The notes under the pieces were generated by a model. It made no database searches and had not been told where the DNA came from. It worked only from the letters and a program-made list of their open reading frames with translations. Below are positions 20,855-28,788 of a stretch of 33,651 nucleotides of DNA, piece by piece. Origin of the DNA: Pseudomonadota bacterium (GTDB lineage: Bacteria > Pseudomonadota > Alphaproteobacteria > Paracaedibacterales > CAITNM01). Position numbers and translations under genes: made by a program. How positions within the stretch are numbered: the first letter of the stretch is position 1; the number at the start of each line of letters is the position of its first letter. The stretch lies in the NCBI GenBank assembly GCA_018062345.1, contig JAGOSL010000002.1:96541-130191 (forward strand), written 5' to 3'.

Positions 20855-21844
20855 TTAGTGCTTATTTGTTTGATTTTCTGAGGTATGTTCTTCGTTAGTA
20901 TCTTCAAGTCCTGCCAAAATACCTTTTAGTCTATTTGAAAGCTCAGGGTCTTCGCCTTCATTGTCGGAGATTTCATCATCTGCGTCTTGAATATCTTCAG
21001 GCTCAATTTCGATATCAATATTAGCCCTTTCAGCAAATTTTCTGGTGTGTGGATGTGTAATATTTTTAGGAAAAGAATCAATTGACCAGGAAGGATCGCT
21101 GGTTTTTAGAAGATTTTCTGCGCTATTTATTGTTAGAATGCCATTTTGTAATTTTTCATCAGGAATCAATTGATTGTATATGTCTGTAAAGAACGGTGAG
21201 AATTTTACAATATCATTATCTTTTTTTGGTAGATTACTTATCAAGGCAATGCTTAGCTCGTTAATTAGTTCTTCATCTCCTTTTGGCAAGTATTTCTCTA
21301 AATGTTCTATGGTGAAGAAATTGAGAGCGAACATTTTTACATATAGAAAAGGATCAGTTGATTCTAAATAATTTTTAATTCTTTGAAATTTTTGGGGTTG
21401 ATGGATTTCAATATCTTTTAAAAATTTCTCAAGATCTTCTTTGCGTTCTTCTGTGTATTTTTCAATTGGAGTGCGATCAGCTGATAAATCAAGCCATTTG
21501 TGTTGATTTCTAAAAAATAAATCAGCATTTCTGAGAAGATTTTCTGGCCCCTGGCTATTGACTAAGATTGAAACGGGTTTGTCCAAAAAATAAAGATAGG
21601 GTATCAGATGTAAATCCAAGCAAAATCCGGGCATTGAAGCGATTTTTGGAATGTCTTCCATAAAATAGGTTGCACAATGGGTGCAACTTGGAGAAAGCCA
21701 TGCAGCAATATGAACGCGGCAGCCTCTCTGAGCGTTCAATGTTACAAATGTCTGAGGAGCTTTTGCGGGAACTGGTTGTAATGCCAATAGACCATTTAGA
21801 AAGCCTGAGATTAAGGTAATTATAAAATATGAAGAAAATTGCAT
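20855..21844 (-). CDS. Secreted thioredoxin-fold protein (DsbA-like) with acidic tail
   Basis: A 329-residue protein with an N-terminal signal peptide (about residues 1-22, ending near LLALQPVPA) and a DsbA-like active-site helix AAWLSPSCTHCATYF with the CxxC pair Cys54 and Cys57. Such proteins make, reshuffle or reduce disulfides in the periplasm. A helical insertion rich in Lys and Glu follows, as in DsbA-type folds. The last 60 residues are strongly acidic (DIQDADDEISDNEGEDPE) and probably disordered. The redox direction cannot be told from sequence. Its ATG lacks a clear Shine-Dalgarno. It lies upstream of rpoZ on the same strand with a 57-nt gap. Close relatives I cannot name. Confidence 0.7.
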   Translation of the reverse strand: MQFSSYFIITLISGFLNGLLALQPVPAKAPQTFVTLNAQRGCRVHIAAWLSPSCTHCATYFMEDIPKIASMPGFCLDLHLIPYLYFLDKPVSILVNSQGPENLLRNADLFFRNQHKWLDLSADRTPIEKYTEERKEDLEKFLKDIEIHQPQKFQRIKNYLESTDPFLYVKMFALNFFTIEHLEKYLPKGDEELINELSIALISNLPKKDNDIVKFSPFFTDIYNQLIPDEKLQNGILTINSAENLLKTSDPSWSIDSFPKNITHPHTRKFAERANIDIEIEPEDIQDADDEISDNEGEDPELSNRLKGILAGLEDTNEEHTSENQTNKH

Positions 21845-21925: not shown

Positions 21926-23023
21926 ATGAGTTCTATACTTCAAGTTTTACCGGGCTTTCATACTGGTGGTGTCGAGCAGACAACCTTGCTAGTGGCAAAT
22001 GCATTAGCTGAAAAGGGTTGGAAAAGCTTCATTGCTAGCGCTAAAGGAATATTAACAGAGAGTTTGCATCCAGACGTTGTGCACATTGATTTGCCTTTAA
22101 ACTCAAAAAATCCGCTTATAATGTTTTCTAATGTGAAAGAATTAATAAAAATTATTGAAGGGCACAGCATTAATATTGTGCATGCTAGATCACGAGCTCC
22201 TGGCTGGAGTGCATATTTTGCGGCAAAGTCAAAGGATGCAACCTTTTTAACTACTTACCACGGTGCTTACAGCCAGAATTTTTTTAAATGGTACTATAAT
22301 CGTGTGATGACAATGGGAAAGTTAGTTGTTGTAGCGTCTTCTTACATGGAAAATCATGTTAAAAAATACTACCCAAGTGCTGAGTGCATTAAGATTCCAT
22401 CGGGAATAAATACACAATATTTTTCTCCTGAAGAGGCAAATGTGGCGCAAGAGCAAGAATTAAAATTATTATGGGGAATTAAAGCTTATACAAAAATTAT
22501 TTTGTTGGTAGGCAGGTTCACTCCTATTAAAGGCCACCAAGTTTTATTGCAGGCGCTTAGTAAAAGTATTTTTAAAGACCAGATAAAAGTAGTTTTTGTG
22601 GGGGATGGTAAAAATCCCAATTTTATTGAAGATCTAAAAGGGCAAGCTGCTGGGTGCAAGCTTGAATTGCATATTCATACGGATGAAAAAGACCTTCGTC
22701 CATTTTTTAGTGTGGCAGATGTTGTTGTTGTGCCAACAACAAAACCTGAAGCTTTTGGCCGAGTAACAGTTGAAGCAATGAGCATGAGCAAACTGGTTAT
22801 CGTTAATGACCTTGGGGCCTCAAGTGAAGTTTTAAATGACCAGGATTGGGTTTTTGATCATTGCCATGTTGAGAGTTTGACTCAAAAAATTGATAACGCG
22901 TTGAATTTAGGTACAGAGCAAGCACAAGCAGTAGGTGCGGCAAACCGAATGCGTGCATCAACACTATATGATGTTGATGCTCTTGTTGAATCTCATCTTC
23001 AATTATATAAACGGTTTCTTTAA
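21926..23023 (+). CDS. Glycosyltransferase family 4 protein
   Basis: Retaining GT-B glycosyltransferase of 365 residues, probably adding a sugar to lipopolysaccharide core or another surface glycan. The N-terminal acceptor domain opens with ILQVLPGFHTGGVEQTT, the glycine-rich loop typical of GT4. VHARSRAPGWSAYFAA and TTYHGAYSQN follow. The C-terminal nucleotide-sugar domain has ILLVGRFTPIKGHQVLLQA, VFVGDGKN and the E-x7-E motif in PEAFGRVTVEAM. No membrane segment is seen. Donor and acceptor cannot be assigned. It is divergent from the thioredoxin-fold gene, and its stop shares TTAA with the convergent secretion-like gene at 23020. Confidence 0.9.
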   Translation: MSSILQVLPGFHTGGVEQTTLLVANALAEKGWKSFIASAKGILTESLHPDVVHIDLPLNSKNPLIMFSNVKELIKIIEGHSINIVHARSRAPGWSAYFAAKSKDATFLTTYHGAYSQNFFKWYYNRVMTMGKLVVVASSYMENHVKKYYPSAECIKIPSGINTQYFSPEEANVAQEQELKLLWGIKAYTKIILLVGRFTPIKGHQVLLQALSKSIFKDQIKVVFVGDGKNPNFIEDLKGQAAGCKLELHIHTDEKDLRPFFSVADVVVVPTTKPEAFGRVTVEAMSMSKLVIVNDLGASSEVLNDQDWVFDHCHVESLTQKIDNALNLGTEQAQAVGAANRMRASTLYDVDALVESHLQLYKRFL

Positions 23024-23472
23024 AGTTGAAGGAGTTGTTGTTTTTGACGAGCATCACCATCGACAATGCGGTGCCCTATAGTGATTAGACTTTGATTAGA
23101 TCTTAGTTTTAAAGTTTTTTTATGAGAGTCTTTTAATTCAAATTCAACATAATGGTTAGTGACCTTTGTAATTTTTAAAGTGTTATCTTCCATGTCATCG
23201 GCTGTATAAGTTCGGTCATTAATCCATACACTCCAATGTGTAGGTGACAAATATAAGATTGCGCTTAAAAATAAAATTTCTTCGATTGTGAAGCGAGATG
23301 TGAAAATTTCAGGCGTTTCCAGAAAAGAGGTGGCTTCGTCTTCAATAGGAGCAAGTTCATTTAGCAAGTTCACTTCATCTAAAGACATCATTAGGGATGC
23401 TTTAATGGGAAAGAGTAAGAAAAAACTTACTATGATTAAGGCTTTATAAAAATTCTCAATCCACATCTGCAT
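23020..23472 (-). CDS. Putative GspB/GspC-like secretion platform protein
   Basis: A 150-residue protein with an N-terminal hydrophobic segment (about residues 10-26) serving as anchor or signal. An acidic linker follows, then a small domain with SVWINDRTYTADDM, LKITKVTNHYVEFEL and KTLKLRSN. That pattern, an Ile-Asn-Asp/Gly-containing strand then a 'value of G' repeat, is what the GspC homology region and the GspB/MshK C-terminal domain look like, which link inner-membrane platform to secretin. The match is weak alone and relies on the three genes before it. It is the last gene of the minus-strand run, 16 nt after the gspM-like gene. Confidence 0.5.
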   Translation of the reverse strand: MQMWIENFYKALIIVSFFLLFPIKASLMMSLDEVNLLNELAPIEDEATSFLETPEIFTSRFTIEEILFLSAILYLSPTHWSVWINDRTYTADDMEDNTLKITKVTNHYVEFELKDSHKKTLKLRSNQSLITIGHRIVDGDARQKQQLLQL

Positions 23473-23488
23473 GAGAGATCAAATAACT

Positions 23489-24100
23489 TTATTGTTTTGA
23501 AAGATCATTGCAAAACGGCGCATATTCTAGTTCAAAGTCAATAGTTCCTTCAAAGAGGCTAACCTTCTCTCCTTCACTGACTTTTTGTGAAAGCTGCTTA
23601 TTAAGCTCTTTAGTGCGTTTTAGTTCAAATTTTTTAACTTTTATAATGCCCGGAAGATCAGTTTCAAGCTTTTGTAGGAAATTAATAAAACTTTGGTCAC
23701 GCAGAACATGAACATTAAGAGAAATATTTGCTTTTGTGATATTATTAGTATCACCCGATATTTTGGAGTGAATGAACAGAAATTCTACATTTGCAGATTT
23801 TTGCAGGGCATAGAGAGATTGGTTGAGGCGGTCTTGGGTTAATGGAATTTTCCATTTTTTGCGCTTAAATGTGTTGAATTTTTGAACTTCTTGCCTGCTA
23901 AGTTTTTCATAAACTTCAGCAGCATCAATTTGAGCTGTTAGTGAATGTATTTTTTTATTTGTTAATATAATCTCTTCTTGGGTCGTTTGATAATGATTCA
24001 CTGCCATTATTAGGATAGAAAGGCAGAATATCACCAAAAATATGAGAGAGCCAATAACTCCGCCTGTCTCAATTCTATTCCATAGTTGCCAGTTAATCAT
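23489..24100 (-). CDS. Putative GspM/PilO-like platform protein
   Basis: A 203-residue bitopic protein: a short cytoplasmic N-terminus, one membrane segment (about residues 13-34), a coiled-coil stretch (QTTQEEIILTNKKIHSLTAQ) and a periplasmic domain with ANISLNVHVLRDQSFINFLQ. This is the architecture of GspM in type II secretion and of PilO in type IV pili, which pair with GspL or PilN. The start is placed at the ATG 24100 (MINWQLW), overlapping the gspL-like stop by eight bases; a longer start at 24154 is possible. Sequence identity to known GspM is too low to see by eye, so the call rests on topology and order. Confidence 0.55.
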   Translation of the reverse strand: MINWQLWNRIETGGVIGSLIFLVIFCLSILIMAVNHYQTTQEEIILTNKKIHSLTAQIDAAEVYEKLSRQEVQKFNTFKRKKWKIPLTQDRLNQSLYALQKSANVEFLFIHSKISGDTNNITKANISLNVHVLRDQSFINFLQKLETDLPGIIKVKKFELKRTKELNKQLSQKVSEGEKVSLFEGTIDFELEYAPFCNDLSKQ

Positions 24101-25502
24101 TGTGCGGCTCTGCTCGTTGCTGAATAAGAAGGGTGGTATCTTTATCATGTTCATCCCAAGTTAACGTTGCATTCTCAAAAATTTGCTCAAATTTATTACT
24201 GATGTGCTTCTTAATTTTTTGATTTTTTTTAGAAAACTTTAACCGAAATTCTGACCCATGTTCTTCAAGATTCCAGGTAATTTCTGAAATTTGGACTATG
24301 CCTTTCAGTAATTTATTTGCATTGTTGATAGCATTAAAGGGATTTTGATTATTTCTTCTTATATAAAGGTTAAAAAAGCTGCTTAGATGTACCTGTTCGG
24401 CAAGATTTTTAGGGGATTTTTTGCATAATTGATCATATTTTGCTGTTAGCCATTTATTTTCATAGTCTTGAAAAAATGACTTTATTTGAATAGAGGCCCA
24501 AAGTATTAACAAAATTATGCTTACAGGAATCAAGATTTTGATGCAAAGTTTTGGTAATTCGTGTGCCAATCTTGCTTGTTTTAAAGTTTGAGGTGAGAAA
24601 ATTAAAAAAGGCTTAGTAGGCTTATAAATCGATTTTTCTAAAATTTCTTCTGGCACTTGAATAAGCTCAAGTCCTGCATTAGAAAATGTGGTGAATCGGT
24701 TATCTTTAGGGGTTAGAATAGATACTGCTTGTCCTTCTTTATAGCCCTGCCTTTGTAAGAATCTTAACGTGGAGTGCAATTCTTTTTCCAAATCGTCCAT
24801 ATTTTTTGTAAAAATAAGCCGTTGTAGCAGGATTTTATCCGTATGCTGAATTATAATAGTGCAGCTATTACTATCAACTGGTATGACAGTTACAATCCAA
24901 GCCCGTAGTGAGCTATTAATACTAGCTCTTTTCTTCATGGCTAAATTCTGCTCAATATCCCAGGAAAGCACTCCTCCGATAGGGTTTTTTAATGACGCTA
25001 GGATTTTGAACATTTGCTTAAGTGTGTCATTGCTTCTTGTTGAAACAAAAATATCAACTCTTTCAGGGTGCTGTTTTGGTTGATAGTGTGCGACTAAGTC
25101 ATCTGGCCCAAACTCATTTGTTTTGATTTGATTAAAAAGAAACAGGCGATCCCAAATATGTATTTGATTTGTAGGCAATGTGCGAAATTCACAATCTTGC
25201 CCTTGCACGATAAGGTAGATAGGAGAATGTTTATGAGAAGAGATGTATTCTTGCCAATCAGGCTGTTCAATGGAAATATTTTGAGTATGAGTAAGTAAAT
25301 TATTTTTAAAATGATAAAGGGTGTAGTTGCCCTGAGATTCATATAGGGTTATGTAGTCTAGGGGGTAATTTTTCCAGCTAGCGATACGTTTCCAAATGGT
25401 TTGAACGTAAAATTGTAAGCTTTTCCAGATTTTTTTATTATTGTGAGTATAATTTTCAGGTGCTGTTTCTTTGTTTTTAATCCATTCTGGCAACTTGATC
25501 AT
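24093..25502 (-). CDS. Putative GspL-like (PilM/PilN-fusion-like) platform protein
   Basis: A 469-residue protein with a large N-terminal cytoplasmic part (to about residue 325), a single membrane segment LCIKILIPVSIILLILWASI, then about 120 periplasmic residues including ISEITWNLEEHGSEFRLKF. That layout matches GspL, in which an actin-like cytoplasmic domain binds the GspE ATPase and the periplasmic domain binds GspM. It sits directly after gspF and before the GspM-like gene, as such genes do. The start chosen is the ATG at 25502 (MIKLPEW), overlapping the gspF end by 26 nt; the ATG at 25526 is an alternative. No Shine-Dalgarno is evident for either. Confidence 0.55.
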   Translation of the reverse strand: MIKLPEWIKNKETAPENYTHNNKKIWKSLQFYVQTIWKRIASWKNYPLDYITLYESQGNYTLYHFKNNLLTHTQNISIEQPDWQEYISSHKHSPIYLIVQGQDCEFRTLPTNQIHIWDRLFLFNQIKTNEFGPDDLVAHYQPKQHPERVDIFVSTRSNDTLKQMFKILASLKNPIGGVLSWDIEQNLAMKKRASINSSLRAWIVTVIPVDSNSCTIIIQHTDKILLQRLIFTKNMDDLEKELHSTLRFLQRQGYKEGQAVSILTPKDNRFTTFSNAGLELIQVPEEILEKSIYKPTKPFLIFSPQTLKQARLAHELPKLCIKILIPVSIILLILWASIQIKSFFQDYENKWLTAKYDQLCKKSPKNLAEQVHLSSFFNLYIRRNNQNPFNAINNANKLLKGIVQISEITWNLEEHGSEFRLKFSKKNQKIKKHISNKFEQIFENATLTWDEHDKDTTLLIQQRAEPHND

Positions 25503-26661
25503 AGAGCGGTACGACAATGGCAACAACCATCCATATCATTACTATTCCCATGATAGATATCAAAAATGGTCCCGTCCAGGCTATTATTTTTTGTAGTTTT
25601 CCTTGATAAATATTTTTTAGTGTTTCTGCGCATATATTGCTATATGTCGATACTTGAGAGGTTTTCTCTCCGGTTAGTAATAAATGCTCAATTGATTCAG
25701 GAAGTTTTAATAGGTTTGTGAGGGCTGCACTGATTTTTCCATCATGCTTGATAATATGTTCTATTTGCAAAGCATGGCTTTTTAAATAAGTATTTTGCAA
25801 AATATCAGTAGTGTAGCTTACGGCTTGTATGACATGGTGTCCACGTTTTAGCAATATTGAAAAACTCTTCAGATAAAAGCTTTGTATTGTCATAAGGTAA
25901 ATAGGTCCAAATATTGGGAATTTTATTGAAAGCCAAGAAAAAATATATTTTATTCGCTTTATTTTTGATCCCATATAACAGCTTGTAATAACGGTTATTA
26001 CCACTGGTAAATTTGTGAAAATGGTAAGGAAGTTCTTTAGGATTTCTGCAAAATGAATAAATAAAGTTGTTGTTAAGTGTTGTTCAAAATTATTATTTCG
26101 AAAAAAATCTAGGGAGGTGGGCAAAAGAAATTCACTAAAAGCTATGATCATTGAAAAAATAATAATGGCTAAAACGATTGGATATTGAAGATTAGAACGT
26201 AATTGCTTGAAAAATTCGATTTCTTCTGCCCTGAGCAATGCGTAATCTTCGAAAGCTTGCGCGTATTGCCCCGTTGCTTCAGCTACACTTAATAGTCCAA
26301 TGAATAATTTTGAGAAAAATTGATGTTCAGAAATAATCTGTGAAAGAGTTTGGCCCGCGTAGAGTCCTGCTAGTAACATATCAATAATTTGTATTTGCTT
26401 TTTGCCAAGTCTTAATTTACTAGCTTGCAAGCTTTCCACTAGTGATAGCTCTTGCTTTAGGAAAAAGTTCATATCTTTTGCCCATTCAACAGTCCAAATG
26501 TCTGATGTCATAAGCCAAGAGAATTTTTGAGGTTTTATGTGAATAGGGTGCAGGTTCTTCAGCTTTAGATTGTATAAAGCGTGATCTTTGCTATTTGCTG
26601 GAATTGCACCTCGAACTTTTTTTCCATTAGCATTTAAGGCTTGAAATTGATACATACGCAT
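25477..26661 (-). CDS. gspF: Type II secretion system F family protein
   Basis: Polytopic inner-membrane protein of 394 residues, the core of the type II secretion or type IV pilus platform, contacted by the assembly ATPase. The N-terminal family start reads YQFQALNANGKKVRGAI, as in GspF/PilC. Two T2SSF repeats follow: the first with FLLPTSLDFF after helix 1, the second with SFSILLKRGHHVIQA and LLLTGEKTSQVS (the conserved GE(K/R)TG-like segment). The final helix ends IVVPLYDQVARMD. Three long hydrophobic segments are present. It lies eight bases after rsmI and overlaps the gspL-like gene. No GspE, secretin or pseudopilin is in the window. GspF versus PilC cannot be decided here. Confidence 0.88.
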   Translation of the reverse strand: MRMYQFQALNANGKKVRGAIPANSKDHALYNLKLKNLHPIHIKPQKFSWLMTSDIWTVEWAKDMNFFLKQELSLVESLQASKLRLGKKQIQIIDMLLAGLYAGQTLSQIISEHQFFSKLFIGLLSVAEATGQYAQAFEDYALLRAEEIEFFKQLRSNLQYPIVLAIIIFSMIIAFSEFLLPTSLDFFRNNNFEQHLTTTLFIHFAEILKNFLTIFTNLPVVITVITSCYMGSKIKRIKYIFSWLSIKFPIFGPIYLMTIQSFYLKSFSILLKRGHHVIQAVSYTTDILQNTYLKSHALQIEHIIKHDGKISAALTNLLKLPESIEHLLLTGEKTSQVSTYSNICAETLKNIYQGKLQKIIAWTGPFLISIMGIVMIWMVVAIVVPLYDQVARMD

Positions 26662-26669
26662 AAAATATT

Positions 26670-27491
26670 CTAAGTATTTTTTATCTCAAGTGCCAAGTCA
26701 TATGCTTGCTTTTTTGAAATATCGTAAGTGGAACTGATAATGCCAACGATATCCTTGACGGAATGAGTTTTTAAAAGGCGATTAATATCATTATTGATGA
26801 TGTTCAAAGAAACTTCCTTTTCAGAAGCAGGACTTAATATGATAACAATTTCCCCTTTTATTGAGCTTTTTTTTGAAAGAACTTCAATAACTTGATCAAA
26901 GGTTCCTGAAATTTTTTCTTCATATATTTTTGAAATTTCGCGTGTTACTGCTACTTGTCTATCATCGAAAATTGTTTTCAGAAAAATTAAAGTTTTTAAA
27001 AGTCTTCGTGCAGATTCATAAAAAATTAATGAGCCAGGAATATTTTTAAATTTTTTCGCTGCTTTTGATTCAAAAAATCCCGCAAAGAAAAATTGATTTG
27101 TTGGCATTCCTGACATGCACAAACCGCTAACTGCTGCGCACGGACCAGGTAGTGCAGTGTAGTAAAGTTCTCGTTCTTGAATTTCTCTAACTAGTTTATA
27201 TCCAGGGTCTGAAATAAGTGGAGAGCCTGCATCACTGACTAAGCAAATTTTAGAGCCTTGCATAATTTTCTCAATAATTTGATCTCGAGCCGATGTGGCA
27301 TTGTGTTCATGGTATGTTAATAGAGGTTTTTTTATGCCATAAGCATTTAGTAATTTGCTTGTCACACGAGTGTCTTCACAATAAATCTCATCACATGTTT
27401 TTAGATATTCAAGTGCTCTTAAGGTAATATCTTTAAGATTCCCTATCGGTGTAGGAACAATGTATAGTCCAGGTTTTAATTCAATATCCAT
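26670..27491 (-). CDS. rsmI: 16S rRNA (cytidine(1402)-2'-O)-methyltransferase
   Basis: SAM-dependent enzyme that methylates the ribose of C1402 in the decoding centre of 16S rRNA. The 273-residue tetrapyrrole-methylase-fold protein has YIVPTPIGNLKDITLRAL at the start, EDTRVTSKLL, the SAM loop SDAGSPLISDPG and ALPGPCAAVSGLCMSGMP. YESARRLLKTL and VTREISKIYEE follow. The start is set at the ATG 27491 rather than the TTG at 27500. It overlaps the DUF1467 gene end by 16 bases. RsmI is next to unrelated neighbours in many genomes, so context adds little. Confidence 0.96.
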   Translation of the reverse strand: MDIELKPGLYIVPTPIGNLKDITLRALEYLKTCDEIYCEDTRVTSKLLNAYGIKKPLLTYHEHNATSARDQIIEKIMQGSKICLVSDAGSPLISDPGYKLVREIQERELYYTALPGPCAAVSGLCMSGMPTNQFFFAGFFESKAAKKFKNIPGSLIFYESARRLLKTLIFLKTIFDDRQVAVTREISKIYEEKISGTFDQVIEVLSKKSSIKGEIVIILSPASEKEVSLNIINNDINRLLKTHSVKDIVGIISSTYDISKKQAYDLALEIKNT

Positions 27492-27712
27492 AGCAAGCAA
27501 TCGTGACGCAATAATAGATCAAGAGCAATATAAATTACGCAAGTGATTTTTGTGACTTTGAGAAATTTTTGTTTGAAAGAAAACTGTTTGGGAGCGCTTT
27601 TAGAAGTGCCGAGCATGGGTGCTGTATCTGCTTCAAAATCTTTGGAAACAAGCATAAAAAATACTAACCACCAAGTGCATGAAAATACGACTATGCCTGC
27701 CACAACGCTCAT
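27476..27712 (-). CDS. DUF1467 family small membrane protein
   Basis: A 78-residue protein beginning SVVAGIVVFSCTWWLVFFML, the hallmark N-terminus of DUF1467, a small alphaproteobacterial family of unknown function. A second hydrophobic stretch (KITCVIYIALDLLL) follows a basic loop, so two membrane helices are expected. The ATG overlaps the protease stop as TAATG and its end overlaps rsmI, so it is embedded in the run. Its presence supports an alphaproteobacterial origin of the window. Confidence 0.8.
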   Translation of the reverse strand: MSVVAGIVVFSCTWWLVFFMLVSKDFEADTAPMLGTSKSAPKQFSFKQKFLKVTKITCVIYIALDLLLRHDCLLWILN

Positions 27713-28788
27713 TATTTTATAATTCCATTTGAAAGTTCATCAATCATTTTTAAATAGCGTTTATCTATTGCAAAGTGTTTCGCGTTACCGTTATTAGCCT
27801 TTGGCTGCATATCCAAGCGATACGGAGTTGTTATAATTGTTTGGTATTTATTGTAAGCGTTTTCAGGATTTCTTATTAGGTTTTCAATATTTGTTGTAAG
27901 TAGCGTCATTTCTTCTCCTAGTGTGGAGTAACCCATTACTAAACCAAAAAGATGAACTTTTCTAATTCCAAAAATTTCTGTTTCGACAAATACAGGGGCA
28001 CCGCTTGTTCCAGGAAGGGCTAAGCCGTATGGGCGTTTTCTGGGGATCCAACTTTTAAGGGCGAAGTAGCGGCGCTGCACACTTTCTGGTGCGTTAACGC
28101 TTGGTTTTTCATTTGGTAGTTTATTATCTGGATCAAAAAAGATAGAGCTTAACATGACAGTGCGATGATTTGCCAAAGCATCCTCATCAATATTAGGGAA
28201 AAAAAGACACCATTCAAATAGGTAAAACCCTCTTTTTAACTGCTGATTAGGGGTGTCAGAGTTTCCCCAAGTTATTACCAACATTGGTGTATCTGTTTCT
28301 AAAGATGCTTCTTCTTCCAGCTCAATTGGGGAGATGTTTACAACTGGTTCAGACAATTTTAAAACTGCTATGTCGAATTTGTGCTGATCTCCTGGTTCAA
28401 ACCGGATGTAGCGACTGTCAATGAGTACTGATTCGACGTTGTATGTGATAGAAGAGTTTAGGTTAGCGCTGAAAGTAACCGTGAGTTGCTGAGGTGTTAT
28501 TAAAATGTAGGATCCAAAATCTTTCATCGGATATTTTGCTTGCAATAAAAGTTGCATACCATGCGCAGCGGTAATGACAATATTATTGCGAACCAGAACT
28601 CCAGATTGGCTAAATTTTAGTTTGTTGTCTTTAATAAGCGCAGCTGATTCATGGTGAGTTGAATCATATGCGAGGTAAGTGTGTGTTGAAATTGTTTCTG
28701 AACCCACCATGGCAACCAAGGAAGTGTGGATTATTAAGCAGTATAAAAATTTTAATAAACTATTGAGCTTGCAATTCACGACTAGCAT
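27712..28788 (-). CDS. Secreted trypsin-like serine protease
   Basis: A 358-residue protein with a signal peptide (hydrophobic stretch about residues 11-27, LLKFLYCLIIHTSLVAM). It has the chymotrypsin-fold triad: His76 in VITAAHG, Asp139 in FDIAVLKL and Ser262 in LPGTSGAPVF. The serine motif GTSGAP replaces the usual GDSGGP, as seen in some bacterial family members. A longer insertion lies between Asp and Ser. The exported protein probably acts in the periplasm or outside the cell; the substrate is unknown. The start overlaps the yejB end by 29 bases; a GTG at 28779 is an alternative start. It sits where yejE/yejF would be expected, so it may share peptide-uptake duty, but this is a guess. 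Confidence 0.85.
   Translation of the reverse strand: MLVVNCKLNSLLKFLYCLIIHTSLVAMVGSETISTHTYLAYDSTHHESAALIKDNKLKFSQSGVLVRNNIVITAAHGMQLLLQAKYPMKDFGSYILITPQQLTVTFSANLNSSITYNVESVLIDSRYIRFEPGDQHKFDIAVLKLSEPVVNISPIELEEEASLETDTPMLVITWGNSDTPNQQLKRGFYLFEWCLFFPNIDEDALANHRTVMLSSIFFDPDNKLPNEKPSVNAPESVQRRYFALKSWIPRKRPYGLALPGTSGAPVFVETEIFGIRKVHLFGLVMGYSTLGEEMTLLTTNIENLIRNPENAYNKYQTIITTPYRLDMQPKANNGNAKHFAIDKRYLKMIDELSNGIIK

Follow-up and report, generated by a model that had tools for sequence, protein, structure and literature searches.

The described systems closest to the genes analysed here are the type II secretion system (T2SS, Gsp), the type IVa pilus (PilMNOPQ) and the MSHA pilus, which has separate PilM-like and PilN proteins. 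A T2SS usually has five prepilins. The T2SS model of PMC6668835 includes GspC as a mandatory component. In Chlamydiae and protist mitochondria, the minimal T2SS has no detectable GspL/M (PMC6668835, PMC8134430). As for the order Holosporales, a 2023 study describes incomplete type IV pili in most of its members (PMC9992710), and type II secretion has been credited to it (PMC11724238); a term search in a 2025 review of the order gave neither T2SS nor pili (PMC11909080). In view of these reports of type II secretion and incomplete type IV pili, the existence of such a machine in Holosporales is not new. What appears to be new is the naming of three of its platform genes (L, M and K) and of a small peptidase, and with it the completeness of the machine: we have found no paper identifying these genes in the main text of open-licence papers.

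The stretch of DNA that we have analysed, called here the window, has 33,651 nt and corresponds to bases 96541-130191 of contig 20, in a genome of 1.46 Mb (31 contigs, 99.8% complete). Its relatives in the same genus are metagenome genomes; two are labelled Candidatus Finniella and one Candidatus Odyssella, both of which belong to the Candidatus Paracaedibacteraceae (Holosporales), in a group of protist symbionts. An initial annotation of the window had proposed a secretion or pilus platform made by four open reading frames. All of them are present on the minus strand:

23020..23472, minus strand: K, a small protein with a signal peptide or anchor, whose conserved domain resembles GspB/MshK/PilP (sequence similarity)
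23489..24100, minus strand: M, a GspM/PilO-like protein (AlphaFold2 model, structure matches)
24093..25502, minus strand: L, a GspL-like protein (AlphaFold2 model, structure matches)
25477..26661, minus strand: F, an inner-membrane platform protein of the GspF/MshG/PilC family, 394 aa (Pfam T2SSF, 3.3e-24)
26670..27500, minus strand: rsmI, a 16S rRNA methyltransferase gene (Pfam TP_methylase, 3.6e-25), the upstream neighbour, outside the machine

The junctions had been described as overlapping, which is correct for two of the four: F and L overlap by 26 nt and L and M by 8 nt, with the ATG start codons of L and M at 25502 and 24100, respectively, while there are gaps of 8 nt between rsmI and F and of 16 nt between M and K. 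The 3' end of K overlaps a convergent glycosyltransferase gene by 4 nt. Orthologues of F, L, M and K are collinear in every genus member for which this locus is covered, with about 46-76% identity to the proteins of the window. The same F-L-M-K order is found in other Holosporales families, away from rsmI. The location behind rsmI therefore holds in the genus only, and it is not fixed even there: three relatives have an open reading frame between rsmI and F, which by eye is leucine-rich-repeat-like in one case and an ABC transporter in two. The ATPase gene is immediately upstream of F in two genomes (G014 and G015) and one open reading frame away in another (G016). L is present in 29 of the 35 Holosporales genomes searched for it and K in 40 of 42, which indicates that the machine is old and has been kept. 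A 171-aa protein of G011, which had initially been aligned with K, turned out to be an HTH protein and was excluded.

The best NCBIfam model for F is GspF (1.5e-39), with 136 bits, far below the cut-off of 424. F is the sole T2SSF gene in the window's genome: the complete independent T2SS with its own F which the initial annotation had set against its reading was not found there. An alignment of F from the whole order was too diverged to be used in the search for related loci.

The platform proteins L and M had been recognised mainly by topology, and sequence comparison indeed adds little. Pfam and NCBIfam gave nothing convincing for L, M or K, and no Pfam platform model matches L, whose profile search gave a weak PilM match (E 0.43). 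The L and M profiles gave no hhalign signal with single GspL, GspM and MSHA PilM-position and PilO-position sequences, so that the identities of both proteins rest on their folds. Structure prediction, the check suggested in the initial annotation, gave models which resemble GspL/PilM and GspM/PilO, as expected for a platform. The L model (mean pLDDT 76) has an actin-like domain, a long helix with a transmembrane segment and a terminal alpha-beta-beta-alpha-beta-beta unit. The best match of its actin-like part is cyto-EpsL (Z 13.1, 4.2 A over 223 residues); another GspL (Z 12.2), FtsA (Z 11.8) and PilM (Z 11.4) come next. Since the FtsA score is close to that of GspL, this fold would not decide by itself; the transmembrane segment, the ferredoxin-like tail and the gene context do. 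According to its model, L is thus a protein of the GspL fold, with a predicted cytoplasmic actin-like domain, a transmembrane helix and a periplasmic ferredoxin-like domain. The M model (mean pLDDT 77) has a transmembrane helix, a coiled coil and a periplasmic ferredoxin-like domain. It matches PilO (Z 11.3), the periplasmic domain of a pullulanase-type T2SS membrane protein (Z 9.4) and EpsM (Z 8.8), as well as GspL-type periplasmic domains; Foldseek gave a PilO model (7.1e-6). The predicted fold of M is that of PilO/GspM. The presence of GspL and GspM, as in a T2SS, is thus supported at the level of predicted folds, to which those of PilM and PilO are also close.

K has a short conserved domain, with invariant residues L, I, W, W and N. 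Its similarity to GspB/MshK is weak but consistent. The Pfam T2SSB model matches two of 27 members (best value 0.0012), and hhalign aligns K with the Legionella protein in the MshK position of an MSHA-type locus over 64 columns (P 7e-5, probability 62%). Against the PDB, a profile of 14 sequences gave a weak GspB match (E 1.2), which ranks below unrelated chains, and a profile of 27 sequences gave no GspB match. No signal was obtained with one E. coli GspC. K is probably the connector between the secretin and the platform, judging from these similarities; this is the weakest of our calls.

No ATPase, secretin, prepilin or peptidase for this platform is found within the window, as the initial annotation had noted, and a split system was one of the explanations it had offered. 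The genome does encode these parts, at separate loci. The part list, obtained by computation, adds the following genes:

Contig 16, L050:7249-8655: ATPase, beside an xerC-like gene
Contig 20, 155060-156727: secretin, 24.9 kb beyond the window
C20:163437-164075: first prepilin, next to a truB-like gene, with an A|F-x-x-x-E site
C25:88876-89598: second prepilin, with an A|F-x-x-x-E site
C6:1053-1481: predicted mini-peptidase, 142 aa, next to tmk

Absences in the window's genome were established by family and profile searches. The ATPase gene is the single T2SSE-family match at E 0.001, and no PilT-like retraction ATPase was found in this search. Walker and Asp/His motifs can be read in its sequence, and it has an MshEN-type (c-di-GMP-type) domain (NF053729, 52 bits, cut-off 38). 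The Cys4 module is absent in this ATPase and in that of a genus relative, and present in some relatives and references. The ATPase of the genus has also lost the last part of the C-terminal domain along with this zinc module, and keeps the catalytic motifs. The best family for the only secretin detected is MshL (TIGR02519, 197.4 bits, under the cut-off of 250.2). A second, very divergent secretin-family protein of about 660-680 aa is found in G001 (L078:6027-8024), with matches in G002, G003, G004 and G009; it was not found in the window's genome.

The two prepilins have 212 and 240 aa, and the cleavage-type site of both may be written A|F...E5. The GspG model gives them 16-17 bits, against a cut-off of 88.85. 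GspG and the minor pseudopilins H-K were not recognised in our searches, which very divergent ones could escape. A pilin-like match at C1:9203 (E 0.07) looks like chance.

The PF01478 prepilin peptidase model finds nothing in eleven genus members. The mini-peptidase was reached by an intermediate-sequence search, stepwise from divergent small peptidases of other families, and has no prepilin-peptidase match in Pfam or NCBIfam. Its family is found in 19 of 20 genomes. The alignment of these 19 sequences has only two invariant columns, both aspartate; the glycines of the GxGD motif are lost, with IQPID in the window's genome. The family profile matches a full prepilin peptidase of the order, which keeps the N-terminal domain (hhalign E 3e-8, probability 95%), a value to be read knowing that relatives of this full peptidase had helped lead to the family. 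On this evidence the mini-peptidase is a divergent prepilin peptidase homologue with both catalytic aspartates kept, and its activity is predicted.

Very probably, F, L, M and K form the inner-membrane platform of a single type IV filament machine, the genes for which lie scattered over the genome. Scattered genes alone are no proof of a single machine; we infer it because they occur together, because the linkage of ATPase and platform is conserved in relatives and because F, the ATPase and the secretin are each present in one copy in the window's genome. An ATPase, a platform protein and prepilins are all present, as in other members of the type IV filament superfamily, and the predicted parts would suffice in principle for such a machine. 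The initial annotation had also considered a system reduced to its platform, or a platform put to another use. The divergence of L, M and K, the shortened ATPase of the genus and the reduced peptidase could suggest that the platform is decaying or exapted and has no working filament, a reading which we consider very improbable: the set is kept across many families with open frames in most genomes, and the catalytic motifs of the ATPase and both aspartates of the peptidase are conserved. It looks like a complete but dispersed, streamlined machine, not a broken one.

In order to place this machine, we have compared F, the secretin and the ATPase with T2SS and MSHA references. All Holosporales F proteins fall in one clade, in 98% of bootstrap trees. 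The secretins and the ATPases also form one Holosporales clade each, apart from the sampled T2SS and MSHA references, with the secretins on the MshL side. None of the three proteins falls inside the T2SS clade, and each appears beside the MSHA proteins, not inside them; with few references and long branches, the trees tell more about the separateness of the Holosporales proteins than about their exact sister groups. The machine shares with the T2SS its F protein, the predicted GspL and GspM folds, an ATPase, a secretin and the lack of a retraction ATPase. It differs in having no recognisable GspC, no GspG above the cut-off and two prepilins instead of five. The predicted PilM and PilO folds, probably a PilP, and prepilin processing are shared with the type IVa pilus, whereas the fusion of PilM and PilN parts in one chain and the lack of PilT are not, and the PilQ model gives the secretin only 46 bits. 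The minimal T2SS of Chlamydiae and protist mitochondria is also a streamlined system of host-associated or organellar lineages (PMC6668835, PMC8134430), but L, M, the connector and the peptidase homologue are kept here.

Several features resemble those of the MSHA pilus: an MshL-like secretin (197 bits, against 99 for GspD), an ATPase of the MshEN type, an MshG-like platform protein and a small MshK-like protein. In addition, the top match in a plasmid collection for F of two relatives in the order is the F protein encoded in an MSHA locus of Aeromonas. An MSHA-like adhesive surface pilus, used for attachment to protist hosts, is nevertheless doubtful. L is GspL-like, with PilM and PilN parts in one chain, while the PilM-position protein and PilN are separate genes in the Legionella MSHA-type locus used here, F and the ATPase are outside the MSHA pair in the trees, and the Holosporales genes are dispersed.

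DNA uptake by Gram-negative bacteria usually requires a PilT-like retraction ATPase, the very component that our search did not find in the window's genome. This makes a competence pilus working with ComEC rather unlikely, even if ComEC is found in all 17 well-completed relatives and, in the window's genome, lies on the contig of the window, about 10 kb ahead of it. Unrelated bacteria commonly have ComEC too: it was found in 10 of 14 control genomes.

In our reading, this is a dispersed type IV filament machine particular to the lineage, which combines T2SS-like L/M with an MSHA-like secretin. It may possibly represent a separate class specific to the order, neither T2SS nor MSHA nor type IVa pilus, with two prepilins and a very reduced peptidase that has hardly any invariant residues besides the two catalytic aspartates, serving as a core host-interaction device of intracellular Holosporales; this can only be suggested with some reserve. 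By analogy with T2SS and type IV pili, the mini-peptidase would trim both prepilins at the A|F...E5 site, the GspE/MshE-type ATPase would dock to L on the cytoplasmic side and power F as it builds a periplasmic filament from pilins. L and M would make a periplasmic collar, which K would join to the outer-membrane secretin of the MshL-like type. Two features, the GspL-type L and the absence of a retraction ATPase, incline us towards a T2SS-like role, in which a short filament would push exoproteins out: this is the most likely function, and we propose it tentatively.

Once L, M, K and the mini-peptidase are named, no part of the machine is missing on paper, and it can be put to the test. Fast-evolving parts that sequence profiles miss may make a type IV filament system appear incomplete. 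Other streamlined T2SS, among them the mitochondrial one, can also be compared with this alphaproteobacterial machine.

Some other genes near these loci should be mentioned. A secreted-looking trypsin-like protease (PF00089) is found at 27712-28788 of the window (minus strand); in the genus, it is placed two genes away from the platform. Its relatives are present in 32 of 42 genomes of the order, and it may be an exported substrate; it is near the cassette in the genus and otherwise only in G017, so the linkage is not general and we have not retained it as a linked substrate. The second prepilin has conserved cysteines. Next to rpoZ, at 20855-21844 of the window (minus strand), there is a 329-aa protein with a thioredoxin-like CxxC motif (SPSCTHC), with no Pfam match above the cut-off and 45-66% identity in the genus, which may be a DsbA-type oxidoreductase. 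Beside the first prepilin gene, a 691-aa secreted-looking protein with a coiled coil (contig 20, L010:16257-18332) contains tandem near-identical repeats (LADDGTNMEQQQTLPLDNSAGDEVTKPVAN).
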